A stretch of 48,953 nucleotides of DNA. It comes from Bacteroidales bacterium. GTDB lineage: Bacteria > Bacteroidota > Bacteroidia > Bacteroidales > P3. The position numbers were made by a program, and so were the translations under genes. The notes under the pieces were generated by a model. That model had not been told where the DNA came from, searched no databases, and saw nothing but the letters and a program-made list of their open reading frames with translations. The stretch covers positions 1 to 48,953 of the forward strand of contig JAFRRK010000083.1 in the NCBI GenBank assembly GCA_017428115.1. Direction: 5' to 3'. Position 1 is the first letter of the stretch. Each line of letters begins with the position of its first letter. This document shows positions 5,840-10,900 of this stretch, in pieces.

Positions 5840-7396
5840 TTAGTATTGTTTATTTGCAAAAACATTAACTTCGCTCACTGAAGGTGATGCAGGAAGTTTA
5901 TCTAAAACACTTTCGTCAACAATTCCTTTACTCTCAATCATTTTTTTGAAATCAGAATGTAACCAACTATTATCCCATATAGATATATCTTTATCATATA
6001 ATGTCTGACATAATTTTGAACTGAATACTTTTTTTCGGTCCTCAACAATTGTTAAACGTTGAATCCATATTTGTAAATACTCTGTATTAGGTACAGAATC
6101 AAATTTTAGTAATATACGATTGATTATTTCTTTTCTCTTCATTTGGTCAGACTCAATAGTTAGCATCTTTCCAATGATAGCTATTACATGTGGATATGTT
6201 TTAGGATTGCGGTATGCAATATCTATTAATATGGCAATAAGCACATCCGTATCGTACTCTTTCAAGACTTTCAATGGATAGATTCGTTCAAGAAATTCTG
6301 AGAGGGCACGTATAATGCTTCCTGAATTTGGAAAATCTTCAGATAAACCATGTATGAGTAAAAGATGCTTTTGTAAAGAATGCTGAGAGTTTTTTGCTTT
6401 ATTCCAATATATCTTATCGGGTTTGATGGCGGACGTAATTATTTTATCAGTAATGAACGTTTTTTGCACATTAAGTTTAAAATTCAAATCGGCAAGCACA
6501 GATGAAAGTATTTTTGCTATTCTTGCTGCATCTTCTTGTGTGTGGGTGAATATCCTATAGTCATCACGATAGCGTAGTATCTTATAGTCCCCTATTTGCA
6601 AACTTTTACTGCCTTTATTAGCTGTATTGTATTCTTTGATTTTTTCTACAAGTGTTTCATCTGCATAACAAAGAACGATTTCAGCAATGAAATCCATCAA
6701 TACACTTCCTTGTGGAATGCCATTTGTTTGGTTGTATGTTGACCATCTAAGTATAGTGTCTATCTTATCTCCAAGCAGTTTTCCTCGATTTCCCTTGTCT
6801 TTGGAGACTTGTATACCATGTAATGCCCATGAAATAGCGTGAGTGTATAAAGCACCATAGCAGTCTGTAATATCTGTATTTAGCATATACTGATAATCAA
6901 TTGACATCTTTATTGACTGCTGTTCTATTTCTTTCCACCAATTAATAATTATGTCTTTTCTTTCAACTTCAGATTCTTTCTCGTCAAAAGGAAGGCTATA
7001 GCATATTATACTTTTATTTTTCCTTATCTTACGGATTTTACTACAAATTATCTTCCAATTATCATCCTCAGTGATAAGATTTACCAAAACCACATATACA
7101 AAAGGATTGATAATCTGCAAAGGACGCCAAGCATATTTCCCATCTTTATTAGAATATAGTTTATAATTTACATCCTTCTGTTTTTCCGGATGAGATATTA
7201 GGCTTATTTTCCCTTTTGAAATATTACTACATTTCTCATTTAGTGACCATCCTTTCTTTAATTCATTCGATATTTCATCAAGTATCGGTTGGAAATCGAA
7301 ATAGACAGGCAAATCTATATCACAATAGTTTTTTGAACGTAAGAAGAAATTTTTTGCTTCCTCGCCGGTCATTTCAATAATGCTTGTCTTGTTCAT
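5840..7396 (-). CDS. Reverse transcriptase, defence-associated (Abi/UG/DRT-like) type
   Basis: This 518-residue protein carries reverse transcriptase motifs: a first catalytic aspartate in TDITDCYGALYTHAISWAL, an NGIPQGSVL motif, and the YRDD active site in ILRYRDDYRIF near residue 276. The YTHxIxWAL signature is typical of abortive-infection and 'unknown group' enzymes. The QG motif argues against a diversity-generating retroelement enzyme, which normally has SQ there. No maturase or endonuclease domain is evident. The roughly 200 C-terminal residues are helical-looking and unassigned. The gene is AT-rich, follows a purine-rich leader of about 190 nt, and directly precedes the giant surface protein gene. 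An anti-phage role is inferred from family and context. Confidence 0.85.
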   Translation of the reverse strand: MNKTSIIEMTGEEAKNFFLRSKNYCDIDLPVYFDFQPILDEISNELKKGWSLNEKCSNISKGKISLISHPEKQKDVNYKLYSNKDGKYAWRPLQIINPFVYVVLVNLITEDDNWKIICSKIRKIRKNKSIICYSLPFDEKESEVERKDIIINWWKEIEQQSIKMSIDYQYMLNTDITDCYGALYTHAISWALHGIQVSKDKGNRGKLLGDKIDTILRWSTYNQTNGIPQGSVLMDFIAEIVLCYADETLVEKIKEYNTANKGSKSLQIGDYKILRYRDDYRIFTHTQEDAARIAKILSSVLADLNFKLNVQKTFITDKIITSAIKPDKIYWNKAKNSQHSLQKHLLLIHGLSEDFPNSGSIIRALSEFLERIYPLKVLKEYDTDVLIAILIDIAYRNPKTYPHVIAIIGKMLTIESDQMKRKEIINRILLKFDSVPNTEYLQIWIQRLTIVEDRKKVFSSKLCQTLYDKDISIWDNSWLHSDFKKMIESKGIVDESVLDKLPASPSVSEVNVFANKQY

Positions 7397-7576: not shown

Positions 7577-7593
7577 ATAGGGTTTTGCCACCT

Positions 7594-7601
7594 CAAATCT
7601 A
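7594..7601 (-). promoter_or_regulatory. -7 box for the reverse transcriptase/surface protein operon
   Basis: The minus strand reads TAGATTTG, matching the Bacteroidota TAnnTTTG box. Transcription would begin near 7587 and give a leader of about 190 nt. The matching box in the other repeat copy (TATATTTG, 8979-8986) faces the same way and would make RNA antisense to the toxin-antitoxin genes. Confidence 0.5.
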
Positions 7602-7726
7602 TCATCGGACATTGAAAAAAGTTGATTGTTGAAAGTTGAATGTGTTAATTTGTTAATGTGTCAATGCGTTAGTCGATTTAAGAATTAACGCATTCAATTT
7701 TTTCCGCTTTCCTCAAAGTAGTAGTG

Positions 7727-7765
7727 TCATATAGTATGTAATGCGTTGTATATCTTTCTTTTCAT
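7727..7765 (-). pseudogene. Decayed ATPase gene start, copy A
   Basis: An ATG followed by MKRKIYNALHTI and a stop is read on the minus strand. MKRKIYN is a common beginning of Bacteroidales AAA ATPases of this type, though the match rests on memory. Only the start survives here, with a triple repeat array upstream but no clear -7 box (the expected position reads TACAATAA). Confidence 0.4.
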
Positions 7766-7776
7766 ATACCCCAATA

Positions 7777-7860
7777 ACACAAAACGAGATTTTTTATTGT
7801 ACGAAAACTACACAAATCGAGATTTTTCATCTTCATATTCCTACACAAATCGAGATTTTT
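7777..7860. repeat. Phased triple repeat array 1 (33-bp period)
   Basis: Three copies of ACACAAATCGAGATTTTT begin at 7777, 7810 and 7843, exactly 33 bp apart. The first copy has A for T at its eighth base. The 15-bp spacers are unrelated. The array lies 11 bp beyond repeat copy A, upstream (minus strand) of a decayed ATPase start. A GTGCAACA motif follows at 7887-7894. Even phasing of about three helical turns suggests binding sites on one DNA face. Confidence 0.85.
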
Positions 7861-7927
7861 CCGCCCTTCTGTGTCTACTTTTCATGGTGCAACATATCAT
7901 AGTATTCATTGGTTTGTTTGCTATAAA

Positions 7928-7970
7928 ATTACTTTAAAAGGTAATAATCTAAAAAAAAGTTGTATATTTG
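7928..7970 (+). promoter_or_regulatory. Promoter and possible operator of the toxin-antitoxin operon
   Basis: A TATATTTG -7 box lies at 7963-7970, placing transcription start near 7976 and the toxin ATG about 20 nt later. Just upstream, ATTAC at 7928-7932 and GTAAT at 7941-7945 form an imperfect palindrome. This is a plausible operator for autoregulation by the helix-turn-helix antitoxin. Confidence 0.55.
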
Positions 7971-7996
7971 CATTTGAATTATAAACAATATATAGG

Positions 7997-8476
7997 ATGA
8001 CAAGAGCTTACATAGAAGAGGTTCAAAAGACTGATATTGCGGGTCTTTTTACTATTTGCTTTGAAGGTGATGATGCAACCGAATTTCAGAAATTCATTGA
8101 GAAATTCAAGGAAGACGCCACTCGAAAAGAGGAATTGTCGGTGATACTGACAGCTATAAATCGTATGCTTAACGCTAGCGGATTCCTCGAAAGATATTTT
8201 CGTCCCGAAGGCAAAATGGGTGACCACGTTGTTGCTCTGCCAGTAGAGAGAACCAAGATGCGATTGTATTGCTTGCGTATGTCCGACAGTGTTCTTATTG
8301 TTGGCAATGGCGGAATAAAAAGAACCAAGACATATGAGGAGGACGAGAGCCTTAACGGGTATGTCATAACCTTGCAAAAACTTGACAAACTTCTTAATCA
8401 TGCTATAAAAAGTGGTAAGGTGATTATTGAAGAAACCATGATATCAGGTATAGACAAAACAGAATTTGACCTATGA
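7997..8476 (+). CDS. HigB/RelE-like toxin of a type II toxin-antitoxin pair
   Basis: This 159-residue protein resembles Bacteroidales HigB/RelE-fold toxins. Its recognisable core is LPVERTKMRLYCLRMSD followed by SVLIVGNGGIKRTKTYEED. Such toxins usually cut mRNA on the ribosome. Its stop codon overlaps the start of the helix-turn-helix partner by 4 nt (ATGA), the usual sign of a translationally coupled pair. The order toxin-then-antitoxin is that of higBA. It lies between two 190-bp direct repeats. Family recall is good but catalytic residues were not mapped. Confidence 0.75.
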   Translation: MTRAYIEEVQKTDIAGLFTICFEGDDATEFQKFIEKFKEDATRKEELSVILTAINRMLNASGFLERYFRPEGKMGDHVVALPVERTKMRLYCLRMSDSVLIVGNGGIKRTKTYEEDESLNGYVITLQKLDKLLNHAIKSGKVIIEETMISGIDKTEFDL

Positions 8477-8742
8477 GCAAGACAACTGATCTTTTCAACG
8501 AATGTGTCGCGTCTACTCCACAGGACGTTAAACAGCGTGTCGATTGGTCTTTCCAAATTGCCGACAAGATTGACCATATACTTAAAGAACGTGGCATGAC
8601 ACAGAAAGACTTTGCCAAACAGATTGGCCGTTCAGAGGCAGAGGTGAGCCGTTGGGTTGGCGGTACGCATAACTTCACTTTGGCAACCCTCGCAAAAATA
8701 TCGACAGTACTGGAAATACCATTGATAAGTGTCGCAGTATAA
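8473..8742 (+). CDS. XRE/HigA-like antitoxin
   Basis: This 89-residue protein contains a classical helix-turn-helix of the HTH_3/XRE type: MTQKDFAKQIGRSEAEVSRW, then a TLATLAKI segment. It probably neutralises the toxin encoded directly upstream and represses the shared promoter at about 7928-7970. The gene overlaps the toxin gene by 4 nt. No separate promoter is visible. Confidence 0.85.
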   Translation: MSKTTDLFNECVASTPQDVKQRVDWSFQIADKIDHILKERGMTQKDFAKQIGRSEAEVSRWVGGTHNFTLATLAKISTVLEIPLISVAV

Positions 8743-8784
8743 TTTTGGTTATCCATTCCTCTGATATGTTGACATGCTAATATG

Positions 8785-8958
8785 TTGGTTCCTTCGCAAC
8801 CGTCGCTTTCTCGCCTCGGCATAGTGCAAACACTGCGTGATTTGCCCTCTGCACTCGGCTTATCGAAAACGTTGGTTTCTTCGCAACCGTCGTTTTCTCG
8901 CCTCGGCATAGTGCAAACACTGCGTGATTTGCCCTCTGCACTCGGCTTATCGAAAACG
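8785..8958. repeat. Two tandem 87-bp repeats
   Basis: Units 8785-8871 and 8872-8958 differ at two positions. Each contains CTCGGCATAGTGCAAACACT and GCACTCGGCTTATCGAAAAC. Because 87 is a multiple of three, spurious reading frames stay open through it on both strands. The unit looks like a dispersed Bacteroidales repeat; its role is unknown. Confidence 0.85.
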
Positions 8959-8961
8959 ATG

Positions 8962-9151
8962 ATAGGGTTTTGCCACCTCAAATATATCATCGGCCACTGA
9001 AAAAAGTTGATAGTTGAAAATTGAATGTGTTAATGCATTAATGTGTTAATGCGTTAGTCGATTTAGGAATTAACGCATTCAATTTTTTCCGCTTTCCTCA
9101 AAGTAGTGGTGCCATATAGTATGTAATGTGTTGTATATCTTTCTTTTCATA
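8962..9151. repeat. 190-bp direct repeat, copy B
   Basis: Partner of 7577-7766 with no gaps and about 13 differences. It starts 3 bp after the tandem 87-bp repeats and ends in the decayed ATPase start codon at 9150. A minus-strand TATATTTG box at 8979-8986 faces the antitoxin gene. Confidence 0.9.
9079..9150 (-). pseudogene. Decayed ATPase gene start, copy B
   Basis: From ATG at 9150 the minus strand reads MKRKIYNTLHTI followed by WHHYFEESGKN and a stop, 23 codons in all. The start looks like an AAA ATPase of the kind encoded next door, but no Walker motifs follow. Its promoter is intact (TATATTTG on the minus strand, 9178-9185). It may therefore still be transcribed as a short peptide or an RNA. 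Internal deletion of a once complete gene is the simplest reading. Confidence 0.45.
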
Positions 9152-9161
9152 ATGTAATTGC

Positions 9162-9246
9162 ACCAAATTAGTTTTTGCAAATATACGGATTTTACACCAA
9201 ATACAACTTTTGGGCAGTGTCTTTTTTTTACCAAATATGGGTTTTG
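9162..9246. repeat. Phased triple repeat array 2 (34-bp period)
   Basis: ACCAAAT begins at 9162, 9196 and 9230, exactly 34 bp apart. Each is followed after about 5 bases by TTTTG. The array sits at the same distance from repeat copy B as array 1 does from copy A, but has a different repeat sequence. The first unit overlaps the predicted start of transcription. GTGCAACA follows at 9275-9282. Confidence 0.75.
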
Positions 9247-9356
9247 TTCCATTCTTCTTGTGCCACTTTTCTTGGTGCAACACAACACAGTGATACGTGC
9301 GATACGTGGAGATGTTACACAAAATCTGACGAATTGGCAGAGGTCACTCTATTACG

Positions 9357-10697
9357 TTAGGCTCCTTTCTTTATGATATTCTCCATATTTCCCACCATAT
9401 AGAATGGTAGGCTGAATAGTCTGAAACGTTTGCCACCAATAATAGTGGCGAGGTCGTCTTCACGATATTCGCCCGACCACACCCTTACCGCTATATCCAC
9501 ACTGCTGTTGTCGATAAAGGAATGCAGCGAGCGTAGATGCGAATCAGCACCCGACTTTACCTCTATAGGTATGACCTTGCCATCCATCTGCCACACAAAA
9601 TCCACTTCGGCACTGTTGCCACCCTTTCCCCGTCTCCAAAAGGCTCGTCGTTGGCTTATGCGGTCGTTCAACGTAAGGAGTTCCTGTGCCACTATATGCT
9701 CCGCTACCCGACCACGCCAAGTGTCCATCAGGTCGTGTGCATGTATTATTTCACCACGGATGTCGGCAGCATGGTTCACCAATCCAGTATCAAGCCATAT
9801 TAGTTTCGGTTGTCGTCTCATTTCAGTCATGATGGGGGCATCGGTATGTGTGGTTGGATATACCAGCTCCAACAGCATGGCCTTTTGCAACAGGTGGAAA
9901 GCCTCGCCGACCTCTTTTGCCTTGTAGTTGGATCCGGCAAATCCCGTCAGGGTCACAGTCTTACCAGCCATTAACCATCCATGTTCAAGGATGAATCGTA
10001 CTGTGTCGGACAGTTTGTTGTTACGTACATATTTTTCTACGTCGTCGCGGTAGGCCTGAAGCAAGGTCTCGTAGATGTCGTCTATCGCCATGAGGTCCCG
10101 TGTGTCGGCATATCGTTGCACCACTTCGGGCATGCCGCCCACCACCATATATTGGCTGAATAGAGACATCAGCCGACTATGCAACACCCGGCTGCCCACA
10201 GTGTCATACATTATTTCTATAAGATTATCCTGCCCCAAGGCTCCCACAAATTCGGCAAAAGAACATGGCCTTACCGGCAGATACTGCACACGCCCCACTG
10301 GGAAAGATGTGTTTAGGTCTACTACATTCTCTAACAGAGAGCCCGCTGCTACAACATACAGCTCTGGATGCTCCTCATAGAAATAGCGTAGCATGGCAAC
10401 GGCTTTGGGCGAATTCTGTATCTCATCGATGAATAGCAACGTATCGCCGTCTCGGCGTACCATGCCATTTCGGGCAAACAGAAGACCGATACGGTCGTCA
10501 AGAGGCATCTCGGTCTCGAACACTCGTTGTGTCTCAGGACTCTCTAAATTCACATAAAGATAGTTCTCATACGTCTGCCCGAATTCGTTTACCAAAGTTG
10601 TCTTTCCTACCTGACGTGCCCCACGTAGAATGAGCGGCTTACGGTTTTTGCTCTTACGCCATTCGTTCAAGCTATTGATTATGATTCTTTTAAACAT
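9357..10697 (-). CDS. AAA ATPase with DUF4143-type C-terminal domain
   Basis: The ATG at 10697 is chosen because an in-frame TTG at 10724 lies inside the -7 promoter box; this gives 446 residues starting MFKRIIINSLNEW. Walker A is GARQVGKTT near residue 26 and Walker B is TLLFIDEIQ near residue 85. The C-terminal half ends in a PD-(D/E)XK-like pattern, AEVDFVW then IPIEVKSG. This family is abundant in Bacteroidales and its cellular role is not established. Three 16-bp repeats spaced by exactly 33 bp lie just upstream. Two decayed relatives of the same promoter arrangement lie at 7.8 and 9.2 kb. DNA binding or self-regulation is inference. Confidence 0.85.
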   Translation of the reverse strand: MFKRIIINSLNEWRKSKNRKPLILRGARQVGKTTLVNEFGQTYENYLYVNLESPETQRVFETEMPLDDRIGLLFARNGMVRRDGDTLLFIDEIQNSPKAVAMLRYFYEEHPELYVVAAGSLLENVVDLNTSFPVGRVQYLPVRPCSFAEFVGALGQDNLIEIMYDTVGSRVLHSRLMSLFSQYMVVGGMPEVVQRYADTRDLMAIDDIYETLLQAYRDDVEKYVRNNKLSDTVRFILEHGWLMAGKTVTLTGFAGSNYKAKEVGEAFHLLQKAMLLELVYPTTHTDAPIMTEMRRQPKLIWLDTGLVNHAADIRGEIIHAHDLMDTWRGRVAEHIVAQELLTLNDRISQRRAFWRRGKGGNSAEVDFVWQMDGKVIPIEVKSGADSHLRSLHSFIDNSSVDIAVRVWSGEYREDDLATIIGGKRFRLFSLPFYMVGNMENIIKKGA

Positions 10698-10720
10698 TGA
10701 TATTTGTGTTTTTATCTTCT

Positions 10721-10729
10721 GCAAATATA
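10721..10729 (-). promoter_or_regulatory. -7 box of the ATPase gene
   Basis: The minus strand reads TATATTTGC, a good TAnnTTTG match. Transcription would begin near 10715, about 18 nt before the ATG at 10697. The nearest upstream repeat of array 3 covers the expected -33 region. Confidence 0.7.
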
Positions 10730-10742
10730 CGAAAAATAATCT

Positions 10743-10824
10743 ATTCGGTAAGATACTTTATTAAAAAATAGACTCATTCGGTAAGATACTTCGTTAAATA
10801 AACAGACAATTCGGTAAGATACTT
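10743..10824. repeat. Phased triple repeat array 3 (33-bp period), upstream of the intact ATPase
   Basis: ATTCGGTAAGATACTT occurs at 10743-10758, 10776-10791 and 10809-10824, identical in all three copies and exactly 33 bp apart. The 17-bp spacers differ. GTGCAACA follows at 10826-10833, as after arrays 1 and 2. Position upstream of the promoter suggests operator or activator sites. Confidence 0.95.
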
Positions 10825-10900
10825 TGTGCAACACTTATTAATTCGTAAATTCGTGAGTCTTTGATGCATCAAGTACTAACACATTAACGCATTAACGCAT

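Follow-up and report, generated by a model that had tools for sequence, protein, structure and literature searches.

The 48,953-nucleotide contig JAFRRK010000083.1 of a Bacteroidales bacterium (here called the window, meaning the whole stretch of DNA that was analysed) belongs to a genome of 2.78 Mb and carries on its minus strand one intact gene for a DUF4143-type ATPase together with three arrays of short direct repeats (Table 1). Array 3 stands upstream of the intact gene, and arrays 1 and 2 stand upstream of ATPase remnants. On the basis of the letters alone it had been proposed (hereafter the original prediction) that arrays of conserved geometry and private sequence are paralogue-specific operators, perhaps bound by each ATPase itself through its DUF4143-type region. 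When relatives of the gene were collected, the conserved geometry with private sequence turned out to hold widely across the family.

All nine repeat copies of the window start where they had been predicted, and the 16 core bases are indeed the same in all three copies of array 3; array 1 is built from an 18-bp repeat with one variable position. In a three-copy statistic taken over any period of 15-60 bp, arrays 1 and 3 scored 13/14 and 14/14, and for either array none of 1000 dinucleotide shuffles scored as high; array 2 scored 9/14, which was reached by 2 of 1000 shuffles. Among 697 overlapping 210-bp segments of the 49-kb window only four reached 12/14, all of them over arrays 1 and 3. The word GTGCAACA follows each array as predicted (at 7887, 9275 and 10826). 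At array 1 it belongs to a 23-bp element, at array 2 this element is degenerate (73% over 48 nucleotides, not found within 2 mismatches), and at array 3 the match to the element is limited to the short word. Bacteroidales promoters have the -7 consensus TAnnTTTG, and the two TATATTTG boxes recognised with it are consistent with the predicted location of array 3 over the -33 region and of array 2 over the transcription start.

The nearest relative of the intact ATPase, with 95% protein identity, was found in the uncultured Bacteroidetes RUG11139. The protein matched several PADLOC models of PDC-S01, the best of them over residues 1-444 of 446 (1.3e-173), and PDC-S01 models were also matched by all ten relatives submitted. 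Both AAA_14 and DUF4143 were matched in 21/21 aligned members (E-values up to 1); in these 21 sequences the candidate active-site residues E364, E379 and K381 of the C-terminal, PD-(D/E)XK-like part are invariant and D366 is nearly so. A PDB sequence search with the window ATPase alone gave no match at E-values up to 1, and a profile search gave P-loop stretches (midasin best, 6.9e-10), a ribosomal protein (0.044) and a Cas4 nuclease (0.065). A winged helix, as in related proteins, was looked for in residues 225-311, and the Pfam scan gave DUF4143 only.

According to PMC12988326, PDC-S01 is an ATPase fused to PD-(D/E)XK and the fourth most common defence across prokaryotes, yet an unvalidated candidate, experimental validation being pending for most PDCs; PMC13356809 names it as the most frequent individual locus in rumen genomes. 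Judged by the model match, the window protein is of the same kind and is probably a PDC-S01 member, with an anti-phage role as its candidate function. The accessible text of PMC12988326 mentions no upstream repeats or operators and does not contain the word 'promoter', whereas arrays are present here; similarly, no description of upstream arrays of this kind was found in the searchable part of the literature on DUF4143 and PDC-S01. Pattern-limited profile searches of viral contigs gave 10 and 27 loci, to which 13 phage records can be added; these are few, and no census.

Table 1. Arrays, ATPase gene, remnants and associated elements in the window
Feature	Positions	Strand	Remarks
Array 1	7777..7860	-	three 18-bp copies at 33 bp (starts 7777, 7810, 7843); orphan array
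Array 2	9162..9245	-	three copies at 34 bp (starts 9162, 9196, 9230); weakest of the three; orphan array
Array 3	10743..10825	-	three 16-bp-core copies at 33 bp (starts 10743, 10776, 10809)
Intact ATPase gene	9357..10697	-	446 amino acids, AAA_14 + DUF4143, PADLOC PDC-S01
-7 box TATATTTG of the intact ATPase	10722..10729	-	copy 1 of array 3 over the expected -33 region
-7 box TATATTTG within array 2	9178..9185	-	
23-bp element	7871..7893	-	further copies mark the outer edge of some cassettes, whose arrays differ
ATPase remnant behind array 2	9098..9150	-	first and last codons fused out of frame
Second ATPase remnant, behind array 1	7713..7765	-	same kind of junction
190-bp copy (93%) of 7577-7766	8962..9151	-	remnant + 3' flank

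Phased repeats upstream of related ATPase genes

Relatives were drawn from the genus, the family, the phylum, other collections and from plasmid and phage records, and they were picked by similarity and not at random. Duplicate upstream regions and starts too close to a contig end were dropped before counting, as were short open reading frames (below 380 amino acids for the set of 153 regions and below 340 for the set of 159); the sets of 80, 153 and 159 upstream regions overlap in membership. The controls were 196 regions upstream of other genes, taken from these loci and from the window.

Enrichment of phased repeats upstream of other family members, on which the original prediction had staked itself, was clearly found. 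Among 153 non-redundant regions a self-match at 31-34 bp of at least 12/14 was present in 128, of 13 in 111 and of 14 in 85, the corresponding numbers in the 196 controls being 3, 0 and 0. Already in the first sample of 80 regions the best period lay at 31-36 bp in 65%, compared to 9% in shuffles. Outside the Bacteroidota, matches were seen in Collinsella aerofaciens (14/14 at 33 bp, three copies), Fusobacterium animalis (13/14 at 32 bp), Vibrio coralliilyticus (12/14 at 32 bp) and Criblamydia sequanensis (12/14 in the 31-34 bp band, best period 64), and within the Bacteroidota in Segatella copri (14/14) and Parabacteroides distasonis (12/14), both at 33 bp; all six are raw self-match scores. 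The region from Mucispirillum gave 12/14 with a shuffle p of 0.32, which is not significant, and that from Fusobacterium vincentii gave 10/14 in the self-match scan, hence no array. A plasmid gene of Bacteroides cellulosilyticus scored 10/14 in the band and 13/14 at 66 bp alone.

The period is linked to the class of the protein, classes being assigned by the best-matching reference protein (their names, other than PDC-S01, were coined here). In the long class, to which the window ATPase belongs, 13/14 at 31-34 bp was reached in 115/159 regions (33 bp in 97, 32 bp in 24), and in the class of about 377 amino acids in 22/35 (32 bp in 17), with dyad-like cores; the level was also reached in 2/2 regions of the L239 type, in 3/54 of the PRQSGK class, in 0/4 of the GIRRSGK class, in 0/20 of the WCGK class and in 0/196 controls. 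In the WCGK class the same level was reached at 22-24 bp in 14/20 (23 bp in 14, 46 in 14 and 69 in 9), which elsewhere occurred in 5/159 long-class, 1/35 of the ~377-residue, 3/54 PRQSGK and 0/196 control regions. The PRQSGK class matched at any period in 11/54 regions versus 8/196 controls and showed no preferred period. This class-linked period is the strongest hint that the ATPase itself may measure the spacing.

Two details of the shorter-period and dyad classes can be added. Some of the 23-bp WCGK arrays (upstream regions L241-L257), for example L242 and L243, show five or six copies in 190 bp. In the ~377-residue class (L316, L322, L323 and others) dyad cores such as TTGGATTATATTCCAA recur at 32-33 bp, and such cores suggest that one dimer might sit on each of them.

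The array threshold was passed by 130 of the 153 regions, and array anatomy was derived from these, with the search for spacing limited to 31-35 bp. Copy number was two in 28 arrays, three in 73, four in 27, five in one and six in one, and among 264 intervals the spacing was 33 bp in 224 and 32 bp in 38. Copies of the same array were compared in the 102 arrays that have three or more of them; their identity was 0.88 over the 16-bp core and 0.48 over the remainder of the unit, the core value being somewhat inflated by its definition as the densest 16 columns. Since the cores are conserved and the spacers diverged, the arrays look like selected sites held at a kept distance and not like plain duplications. 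That they are neutral tandem duplications made by replication slippage is hardly credible: copy number does vary from two to six and a few arrays (e.g. L055, L056) are alike over much of the unit, but spacers have diverged while cores and spacing were kept, the same period recurs with unrelated sequences and shifts with the protein class, and no control reached 13/14, so that this explanation is largely contradicted already.

A TAnn(T/G)TTG box was found for 97/130 arrays, and in 78 of these 97 a core lies over the -33, the -7 or the start region, by raw count. Direct repeats at constant spacing over the promoter, the mark that was looked for in an iteron-type operator, are thus present.

Private repeats and the one-gene cassette

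The repeat sequence follows the protein over short evolutionary distances. Median repeat similarity was 0.94 where proteins were at least 90% identical, 0.71-0.77 at 70-90% identity, 0.42 at 60-70%, 0.32-0.39 at 40-60% and 0.30 below 40%. Within single genomes, 3/40 array pairs of paralogues reached a similarity of 0.6 (19 genomes, in a partial, hand-made table that left out some genomes with two arrays). As far as these comparisons reach, the core sequence is shared within a subfamily and mostly different between co-resident paralogues. The private sequence of the predicted paralogue-specific operators therefore stands, and the word 'paralogue' is better replaced by 'subfamily'.

It had also been proposed to test whether the repeats covary with the C-terminal domain of the protein. 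Local covariation was weak, with a peak at residues 226-250 (partial r 0.20), nearly equal values at 61-85 (0.19) and 111-135 (0.18), both in the AAA part, and negative values over the PD-(D/E)XK-like part of DUF4143. Regional covariation was dropped as proof of a DNA-binding domain on account of these weak peaks. The proposal that each ATPase reads its own operator is still the most economical one, and its specific element, the DUF4143-type region as the reader, was neither confirmed nor excluded.

Cassette ends were compared in 175 pairs of relatives with at least 68% protein identity, 152 of which had at least 450 bp of upstream sequence. Upstream similarity extended beyond 250 bp in 10 of the 152 pairs, ended between 250 and 100 bp in 77 and within 100 bp in 65. 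Excluding those 10, the left end of homology differed from the outermost shared repeat copy by a median of 0 bp (interquartile range -5 to 31.5). Of the 132 homology ends on the right, 106 were no more than 60 bp from the stop codon, and 8 were over 100 bp beyond it; the right flank of the pair L032/L034 was masked with N, and this pair is uninformative on that end. In L187 and L191, for instance, 98% identity runs from -103 to a point 5 bp after the stop codon, and the flanks differ. The ATPase is the only gene within the stretch shared by relatives, and array, promoter and ATPase gene tend, as far as alignments can tell, to behave as a one-gene cassette. In L044 and L045 array-like sequence occurs again about 2.2 kb downstream of the ATPase start.

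Operator, cassette end or host-regulator site

What was computed, namely the arrays, their class-linked period, the conservation of cores over spacers, the private sequence and the travel of arrays with the gene, leads us to favour, with fair but incomplete confidence, the reading that each array is a private operator bound by the neighbouring ATPase, which would repress its own promoter, and that array, promoter and gene form a moving cassette. Apart from the ATPase no product is encoded in the shared stretch, and no other factor is likely to match so many private sequences, which makes self-binding economical; the promoter overlap points to autorepression, and the class-linked spacing to a ruler-like oligomer. 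We infer the following course. One gene with its array and core promoter would make up a small cassette, which moves between genomes by some means. The ATPase probably binds its own repeats, perhaps reading them with the residues that separate the AAA+ core from the nuclease-like part. It would assemble along the DNA with a spacing set by the subfamily (33, 32 or 23 bp); if a turn takes about 11 bp, these steps come near to a whole number of helical turns. Since the -33, -7 or start region is often covered by repeats, autorepression would follow, and private sequences may let many paralogues share one cell without reading each other's switches.

Several observations weigh against this operator reading. 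In the long class 25/153 regions stay below 12/14 at 31-34 bp, the class period is absent in 13/35 regions of the ~377-residue class and in 6/20 of the WCGK class, and the PRQSGK class is mostly without arrays. Among the boxed arrays 19/97 are clear of the core promoter, 33/130 arrays have no recognised box, and the overlap is a raw count. The correlation between repeat and protein is confounded by common descent (overall Spearman 0.24), regional covariation singles out no one domain, and the pairs in the cassette comparison are not independent. Furthermore, 33 bp corresponds to 3.1 turns at 10.5 bp per turn, and helical phasing needs about 11.

The most serious alternative, possible though clearly less probable, is that the array serves mainly as the left end of a mobile cassette, i.e. 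a loading or cutting site used by the AAA+/nuclease-like protein in its own transfer, the promoter overlap being incidental. The tendency of homology to start at the outermost repeat and to stop near the stop codon agrees with this, and so does the 23-bp element, which borders cassettes with different arrays on their outer side. This element was seen in the window and in L388, L391, L392, L393 and L396-L398. Twelve sites of it were found in 7/59 genomes; eight of them adjoin a long-class ATPase or a remnant, four of the eight being in one locus, two more are truncated where a contig ends, and the last two lack an ATPase. On the other side, the element or a close variant is present in only 7/130 flanks and is thus not general, a cassette's own core was found after the stop codon (up to 200 bp, similarity at least 0.85) in 0/126 cassettes, compared to 8/625 with the cores of other arrays, no target duplication was recognised by eye in the cassette junctions inspected, and most boxed arrays cover promoter elements. 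A general target site was also sought among enriched outer-flank words. The commonest word occurred in 9/130 outer flanks and 0/196 controls, and the candidate was rejected, all such words being present in 9 or fewer of 130 flanks; they resemble insertion-sequence ends.

That the arrays are operators of a host regulator and not of the ATPase is improbable. Their overlap with promoters would be expected of such operators, but the 130 arrays have many core sequences at nearly one spacing, mostly differ between paralogues of a genome and accompany the ATPase as the only gene in the shared stretch, and a single host factor cannot easily read all the cores. Even less likely is a CRISPR-like role in which the repeats act as RNA or template a small RNA: the regular alternation of repeat and spacer has this look, but the -7 box is downstream of many arrays, which are then untranscribed from that promoter, and the subclade formed by L040, L142, L145 and L151 has, by eye, the reverse complement of its relatives' core, which argues for recognition at the level of DNA.

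To return to the private operator, the arrays would work like an iteron-type autoregulated operator, from which they differ in the protein family, the class-linked steps and the cassette form. Plasmid iterons with autoregulating Rep proteins are likewise direct repeats at near-integral helical turns over the promoter of the binder's gene, whereas here the steps are 33, 32 and 23 bp, the sequence is private to the subfamily and the protein is an AAA+/nuclease-like ATPase. Autorepressing toxin-antitoxin operators and C-protein operators of restriction-modification systems are similarly part of self-contained units whose own product acts on the promoter, as is proposed here; they have one or two dyads, in contrast to phased direct repeats with no partner gene in the shared stretch, although the ~377-residue class does share dyad-like cores with them. 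More speculatively, and with considerable doubt, the DUF4143 ATPases could be a large, self-addressed class of mobile one-gene cassettes, in which the array is a private address read by a ruler-like oligomer with a step of 33, 32 or 23 bp built into the class. That one address could then switch the gene off, keep paralogues orthogonal to one another and dock a DNA-attacking ATPase, which would stay harmless until it is freed by foreign DNA or because the array is lost.

A class-linked array beside most genes of this type offers a concrete candidate substrate for the widespread PDC-S01, and the arrays of other paralogues are built-in specificity controls for a binding assay. The more than 100 candidate protein-DNA pairs make a natural set for studying how DNA specificity evolves, and private addresses, if true, would explain how one genome can carry many such genes side by side. 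It should be emphasized that the generality of the arrays and the class-linked period lay beyond the reach of a reader with the window sequence alone.

Orphan arrays and neighbouring genes

The ATPase starts at 9150 and 7765 had been described as decayed, and comparison with a related genome (L227) bears this out. There the same stretch holds two intact 449-residue ATPases behind arrays of the array-2 and array-1 types, a near-identical counterpart of array 1 standing upstream of one of them; the window keeps the ends only, about the first 9 codons being joined out of frame to about the last 8-9 in both remnants. By this comparison arrays 1 and 2 are best described as orphan operators, presumably left by internal deletion of their genes. 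The two remnants with their 3' flanks are 93% identical over 190 bp while their arrays differ, a pattern suggestive of later duplication or recombination between adjacent cassettes.

Other genes lie around the orphan arrays. Downstream of array 1 a reverse transcriptase gene (RVT_1) occupies 5840-7396 on the minus strand, and its similarity to antiviral Drt4 and Drt3b is below curated cut-offs. Between arrays 1 and 2, at 7997-8742 on the plus strand, there are two overlapping genes with a toxin-antitoxin-like look: the first encodes a 159-residue protein with no Pfam or NCBIfam match, and about 220 bp of this gene are missing in L227; the other encodes a helix-turn-helix protein (HTH_26/HTH_3) found at the same place in L227, between the two intact ATPases. 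Two 87-bp tandem copies, 95-97% identical, lie at 8784-8958 between the helix-turn-helix gene and the array-2 remnant.

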